Below, piece by piece: positions 21,575 to 21,760 of a DNA stretch of 64,000 nt. Position 1 is the first letter of the stretch. Each line of letters opens with the position of its first letter. Source of the DNA: Anaerohalosphaera lusitana (GTDB taxonomy: Bacteria > Planctomycetota > Phycisphaerae > Sedimentisphaerales > Anaerohalosphaeraceae); the NCBI RefSeq assembly GCF_002007645.1, contig NZ_CP019791.1, positions 1,302,001-1,366,000 on the forward strand, read 5' to 3'. A program made the translations under genes and the position numbers. The notes beneath the pieces are model-generated. The model saw nothing but the letters and a program-made list of their open reading frames with translations, was not told the origin of the DNA and made no database searches.

Positions 21575-21760
21575 GCAAATGCGGGTTCATCTGTTAAGAT
21601 GTCCCTTGCGACTGTTCGGGTTAAAAACACGTCTGGACAGCGGATCAGGCTACCTTCGGGCTCAAGGCCCCAGGGTGGGACGATCTCGCTGCCCGTGATC
21701 GGTTGGTTGCCTGCAGGCAACCAACCGACCCGAACATTAACTCGTTCGTATCCAAACGTC
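21575..21760 (-). ncRNA. Predicted IS110 bridge RNA, copy 1
   Basis: The 220-base non-coding left end holds features expected of a bridge RNA. A perfect 28-base palindrome at 21700-21727 would form the first stem-loop. A loop enclosed by CGGGC/GCCCG carries CCCACCCT (complement of 21672-21679), identical to eight bases of the copy 1 target including the CT core. The same loop carries GCCCGAAG (complement of 21654-21661), matching seven of eight bases of the other target half. A second loop, closed by TGTCC/GGACA, carries AACAGTCGC (complement of 21608-21616), identical to the end of the element. The exact 5' and 3' ends are estimates. Confidence 0.65.

Follow-up and report, generated by a model that had tools for sequence, protein, structure and literature searches.

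The window, i.e. the whole analysed stretch of 64,000 nucleotides, carries two copies of an IS110-type element of 1,171 bp on the minus strand. Copy 1 (20608-21778) was delimited between two CT cores by copy comparison and by alignment to empty sites at 40880 and 42048, and copy 2 (31707-32877) by copy comparison and the same bridge RNA match. A third copy was located at about 1,083.6-1,084.8 kb in the genome (4.25 Mb). The element consists of a single 311-aa open reading frame, a non-coding left end of 220 bp upstream of it, and a right end of 15 bp before the core, which is the IS110 layout and not the downstream one of IS1111-like elements.

The recombinase of copy 1 (20623-21558, minus strand; 311 aa) combines a DEDD RuvC-like domain with a Transposase_20 domain. 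The Pfam scan, performed with the longer 365-aa frame starting at 21720, resulted in matches to PF01548 (DEDD_Tnp_IS110, 2.6e-23) and PF02371 (Transposase_20, 4.5e-16). The nearest solved structures in PDB were those of ISCro4 (PDB 9t56, 2.8e-35), which is likened to the element by protein alone, and IS621 (1.1e-31). Residues D8, E52, D94, D97 and S233 of copy 1 aligned with D11, E60, D102, D105 and S241 of IS621, respectively, as counted by hand on the printed alignment with the published IS621 numbering. Both domains with the catalytic serine, the left-end position of the non-coding part and the insertion at a CT core place the element in the IS110 group.

The recombinases of the three copies were 99-100% identical and contained no stops, and their left ends were 100% identical across the aligned stretch. 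These identities and the five catalytic residues kept in copy 1 argue against the elements being dead relics with an RNA out of use, an explanation that draws on the low number of copies found (three) and is considered unlikely.

The CT cores of copy 1 are located at 20606-20607 (right end) and 21779-21780 (left end; both minus strand), as determined from the junctions and the empty sites. Two intact empty target sites were found on the minus strand at 40860-40900 (core 40880-40881) and 42028-42068 (core 42048-42049). The joined flanks of copy 1 aligned to the 40880 site with 288 identities, 25 mismatches and 4 gaps, and to the 42048 site with 170 identities, 13 mismatches and 9 gaps. Compared with these two intact paralogous sites, copy 1 has the layout LT-CT-element-CT-RT with the duplication limited to CT, which shows insertion between two CT cores and bears out the CT placed in the target by the sequence-only reading that preceded this analysis. 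Elsewhere in the window, two 331-aa frames (26043-27038 and 27219-28214) lie in a repeat with a spacing of 1,176 bp; read on the plus strand, they gave no Pfam match at E <= 0.001.

Structure of the bridge RNA

Covariance model R1 placed the bridge RNA at 21565-21698 in copy 1 (minus strand, 112.6 bits, E 1.5e-27) and at 32664-32797 in copy 2 (minus strand, 112.6 bits). The model was seeded with 18 elements, copy 1 among them, and the RNA of copy 2 is identical to that of copy 1. The RNA was in this way recovered at both left ends, and the earlier claim that copy 2 carries the same RNA held. R1 matched 36 of the 53 further loci, 35 of them at E <= 4e-11, and at least three places in this genome, with 150 of the 855 first-look candidates scored. 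The Rfam search of 20500-22000 gave nothing above the gathering score, the one match being at chance level (18.1 bits vs 57).

For the 220-base left end, a folding energy of -93.5 kcal/mol was obtained (z -6.9 versus shuffles). In the alignment of 18 left ends made for the structure, both-side changes were detected in 20 of the 26 pairs of the named structure (shuffled mean 14.4); 85.3% of the cells were paired, compared with 68.2% in the shuffled alignments and 29% to 49% in slid versions. RNAalifold, run unaided, returned 17 pairs, 11 of them with both-side changes, and missed the outer target-loop stem, 74.1% of the cells of which were paired and which is partly out of register in the sequence alignment. 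As in IS621-type RNAs, target and donor loops with covariation-supported stems are present, the 5' stem-loop being recognised by sequence only.

A stem-loop (GGGC..GCCC; 21659-21671, minus strand) separates both target guides. The 3' strand of the donor-loop stem is AAGGAAGGG (21566-21574, minus strand), assigned by the stem pairs, and the same bases are likely also the ribosome-binding site of the recombinase. By this overlap, folding of the RNA could limit the translation of the recombinase.

Target guides and target sites

The left target guide UCCCACCCU lies at 21672-21680 and the right target guide GUAG at 21650-21653, both on the minus strand. Positions 2-9 of the left guide match in copy 1, and in each of the three copies GUAG is paired with CTAC. 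The left guide read previously, CCCACCCT (21672-21679, minus strand), is present and holds as a guide. With the copy 1 to copy 2 offset of +11099, the guides of copy 2 were placed on the minus strand at 32771-32779 (LTG), 32749-32752 (RTG), 32707-32715 (LDG) and 32671-32679 (RDG).

Relatives were collected by protein search in 13 of 161 genomes of the order (E <= 1e-30) and 13 of 392 of the phylum (1e-50), the relative loci being at least those listed; the scan of genome contigs gave 2 loci of named relatives, and held-out elements were located by R1. Guide positions were set by the distance from the flanking stems and the hairpin, independently of complementarity, and cognate RNA-target pairings were compared with shuffled ones, core excluded. 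For the left guide, the better of two offsets was taken for cognate and non-cognate pairs alike. The first test comprised 15 of the 18 aligned elements, as the ends of G127, G144 and G301 were not recognised; L037 and L062 were dropped because of an unrecognised left end, and the stem-loop and guide limits of G500 were set by hand. Two of the 36 held-out model matches were removed by hand, namely L015 and L120, the latter repeating the L107 element as a second copy, and other elements were omitted solely where an end or a guide could not be placed. L109 was kept despite a left junction evidently picked at a wrong motif.

In the first set (44 copies, 15 genomes), the left guide had 5.69 of 7 non-core matches compared with 3.66 for shuffled pairings, and the right guide 2.83 of 4 compared with 1.63 (0/20000 shuffles for both). 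Related genomes share guides, so the tests were also run collapsed to 10 groups, resulting in 0 and 1 of 20000 for the left and right guides, respectively. The held-out values were 4.74 of 6 versus 2.04 for the right guide (23 elements) and 4.67 of 7 versus 2.93 for the left guide (21 elements), again with 0/20000. Among ten shifts of the held-out right guide, shift 0 gave 4.74 and every other at most 2.43, with small excesses at shifts 2 and -2 (32 and 99 of 3000). Both target guides covary with the target halves, on opposite strands, as expected of an IS621-type RNA, and the earlier description of an IS110/IS621-type bridge RNA with readable guides and this strand logic holds.

Match rates of the left guide by position, determined for 36 elements, were 36% at position 1, 55% at position 2, 79-86% at positions 3-8 and 61% at position 9 (core T), all somewhat high since the better of two offsets was used. 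Position 1 is mismatched in all three copies of the present element. The contiguous matches of the held-out right guides (among L085-L119) numbered exactly 7 in 16 of 23 elements and more in 3, i.e. at least 7 in 19, and elements with GUAG had at least 4 in 20/20 first-set copies; 4 and 7 are the native and engineered lengths of the IS621 right guide (PMC11208160). Among the relatives, right guides fall naturally into a short kind of 4 bases, which reads the GTAG foot of REP-like hairpins, and a long kind. The long natural guides look like the counterpart of the engineered 7-base guide, which raised the specificity of IS621 (PMC11208160). Poorer fits were detected as well: first-set copies with non-GUAG right guides reached at least 6 contiguous matches in just 14 of 24 cases, the G147 copies L021 and L033 had 0/4 right-guide non-core matches, and held-out L113 has a mismatch at the second core base. 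The closely related G540 copies L047, L055, L061, L066 and L067 differ in their left guides (UCCGCCCCU, UCGGCCCCU) and also in the bases before GUAG, forming a natural reprogramming series.

Read on the RNA strand, copy 1 has the target GCCCACC-CT-ACGGGC, the third copy GCCCACC-CT-ACCAGG and copy 2 GACTACC-CT-ACACTA. The left guide of copy 2 is mismatched at positions 1, 2 and 4, leaving 6 of 9 pairs compared with 8 in each of the other copies, and all four right-guide pairs are kept. As positions 1 and 2 are often unpaired in relatives, position 4 is the sole inner mismatch, and copy 2 presents a target with one inner mismatch rather than a generally poor one. The previous statement that its target fits less well was overstated, because the right target guide had been placed on a hairpin arm and the actual one is fully paired. 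The mismatch tolerance of IS110 enzymes has been measured for IS621 (PMC11208160).

The exact 11-base site GCCCACCCTAC occurs intact just twice in the 4.25-Mb genome, besides two occupied sites. With up to 3 mismatches over 20 bases, 8 places were found genome-wide, two of which are the occupied ones, pointing to a small family; the many safe copies assumed in the sequence-only reading are unsupported. Its description of the target as a dispersed repeat applies in so far as the site is a REP-like hairpin repeat, but one of low copy number in this genome. A 15-base pattern from the flank of copy 2 had two occurrences in the genome, and no repeat family was seen there.

The target consists of GTAG and an imperfect palindrome, as in REP elements, and two diverged target sites keep the hairpin through paired changes. 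One Y1_Tnp (RAYT-like) gene is present in the genome, but the repeat in its surroundings is a different one. The targeting of REP sequences by such elements is already known (PMC1525189; PMC11208160). A perfect inverted repeat beside the core (arms of at least 6 bp, the end of the repeat being at most 3 bases from the core's far end) was detected in 15 of 21 copies of GUAG-type elements. This number would suit a target found by protein-DNA contacts or by the DNA hairpin shape (REP cruciform), the RNA match being a by-product of the palindrome. However, just 4 of 45 copies of the non-GUAG elements have such a repeat, elements with other guides use targets which follow the guide, as seen in the at least 7 contiguous matches of 19 of the 23 held-out right guides, and copy 2 lacks the repeat by the same script yet keeps ACCCTAC. 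Recognition by DNA shape or protein contacts is consequently regarded as very improbable.

The right target guide had previously been read as GCCCGAAG (21654-21661, minus strand), which is on the RNA strand and pairs 7/8 with copy 1; with the identical RNA, the other two copies reach only 4/8 (third copy) and 3/8 (copy 2). In relatives this register was no better than shuffled pairings, giving 1.99 of 6 versus 1.87 in the first set (44 copies, 15 genomes; 4895/20000), 10426/20000 after collapsing to 10 groups, and 1.52 of 6 versus 1.43 in the 23 held-out elements (6126/20000). GCCC forms the 3' arm of the hairpin in the target loop, GCCCGAAG begins within this arm, and the actual guide lies four bases further on. 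The shift, held-out and first-set tests together assign GUAG as the right target guide and GCCCGAAG as part of the hairpin arm and a linker, so that the earlier placement is hardly credible. Comparing the guides with the targets of all copies, as proposed before, thus upheld GUAG-CTAC in three copies and failed for GCCCGAAG. Guides read by eye next to a hairpin can be off by a few bases.

Donor guides and a putative junction promoter

The left donor guide AACAGUCGC (21608-21616, minus strand) corresponds to the left donor and the core C and is followed by an A, as A131 of IS621. The left donor guide given in the sequence-only reading, AACAGTCGC at the same position and strand, is present and holds. 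The right donor guide AUUUGCAAG (21572-21580, minus strand), a fourth guide absent from that reading, stands opposite CTTGTAT; the pairing includes one G-T pair and a bulge of two U. In IS621, the left donor guide comprises eight bases ending at the core C, then A131, and the right one A157 and U158, the flipped-out U159 and U160, G161, and C162 to G165 (PMC11208158). By reading, both donor guides appear to share this published layout, and in this element alone they were found to pair with its own joined ends.

Of the two published handshake pairs, that of RNA base 166 with target base 7 can form in 19 of 31 elements compared with 14.2 when shuffled (503/20000), and that of base 81 with donor base 7 in 38 of 39, with hardly any variation (1002/20000). 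Both are possible in the present element (81-d7 as C-G and 166-t7 as G-C) and weak across elements. The idea that a full core is selected against in the DNA of the left donor guide, by which self-recombination would be avoided, was considered on the alignment but not substantiated, as CT was present at the core place in 2/18 and TT in 3/18.

Two short relatives with no recombinase detected, L153 (G393:C1:3760086-3763218) and L151 (G536:C1:1968651-1971984), keep a G536-type left end and stop at an internal CT joined to the right half of the target (CTGACCCC). In L153, it is the DNA of the left donor guide (AACAGTCGCT) that forms the break, as though the gene of the guide had been used as the right end. 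Slippage involving the 9-10-base repeats would explain L153 equally well, but L151 shares only CT.

A -10 box TATAAT (21771-21776, minus strand) is located at the left end and a -35 box TTGATT (20621-20626, minus strand) at the right end, and only in the circular form are they 17 bp apart, as TTGATT-17-TATAAT. For 31 elements, the -35 box matched on average 4.45 of 6 positions in the circle compared with 1.61 in the inserted form, being better in 26, worse in 3 (G393, G540, G337) and equal in 2; in this comparison, a wrong upstream motif was used for the left junction of L021 (G147). A junction promoter has been described for IS621 (PMC11208158). In four of the nine G147 copies (L021, L033, L036, L041), the first 13 left-end bases (CTTGTATGATTAA) are tandemly duplicated, and copy L037 has no recognised left end.

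The locus is thus very probably an autonomous IS110-group insertion sequence using an IS621-type bridge RNA with GUAG as the right target guide. Circle formation would join the ends of the excised element into a sigma-70-type promoter, from which the bridge RNA of about 200 bases and then the recombinase gene could be transcribed from the left end. The RNA would be bound by the recombinase, and its second loop would pair with the joined ends of the element, AACAGUCGC facing the left donor and AUUUGCAAG the right one (CTTGTAT). Catalysis by the recombinase would then result in strand exchange at the common CT core, giving LT-CT-element-CT-RT.

Known systems and the palindromic 5' stem-loop

The described features of E. 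coli IS621 (PMC11208160, PMC11208158) are largely shared by the present element: recombinase domains and catalytic residues, a left-end bridge RNA with two guide loops, the CT core, the 4-base right target guide, a left donor guide that runs up to the core C and has an A after it, the two-U-bulged right donor guide, a putative junction promoter and a REP-like target. In contrast, the recombinase is distant, and the left guide and the target are different. ISPa11, ISPpu9 and ISPpu10 of other species insert into REP sequences (PMC1525189), which is comparable to the REP-like target here; the abstract of that source describes the insertion sites of REP-targeting elements and not guides. The seekRNA of ISEc21 (PMC11187229), likened here by its description, is also non-coding, lies upstream of the transposase gene and contains short segments that complement both strands of the target. 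A literature search of a limited collection gave no title or abstract on this element among those listed. The element is a well-supported addition to the IS621 kind, which itself is already known. It offers a testable bridge-RNA system with four guides read, three natural sites of differing fit and two empty sites.

The 5' stem-loop corresponds to a perfect DNA palindrome of 30 bp that lacks a spacer (21699-21728, minus strand); the palindrome noticed earlier before the guides was correctly called perfect, but it had been given as 28 bases (21700-21727). The 5' stem-loop of IS621 is not known to be such a spacer-less palindrome, which would set the present element apart. Spacer-less palindromic 5' stem-loops were detected in 10 of the 18 seeds and in just one of the held-out rows, of which 30 could be measured (six of 36 being too short). 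A perfect palindrome through the loop was present in 9 of 10 measured GUAG elements compared with 2 of 38 measured rows of others. In several GUAG lineages the arms are of unrelated sequence; G393, G540, G337, G228 and L103 share the arm sequence, so relatedness explains part of the pattern.

The IS621 structure paper describes the 5' stem-loop as conserved in structure, diverse in sequence and not visible in the map, and its deletion as lowering RNA binding and, slightly, recombination. The same paper suggests that both loops of one synaptic complex derive from two RNA molecules. As a plain RNA hairpin needs no palindrome running through the loop, the palindromic 5' stem-loop could let two bridge RNAs pair together, a bold and unlikely reading. 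If true, such pairing would fit the two-RNA complex and the loosely explained role of the 5' stem-loop.

In L104, L107, L098, L086, L091, L116, L096, G525 and G017, the 5' stem-loop has variable arms and a conserved loop close to GAGCGTAGCGA. The 5' stem-loops of this kind belong to lineages with non-GUAG right guides.
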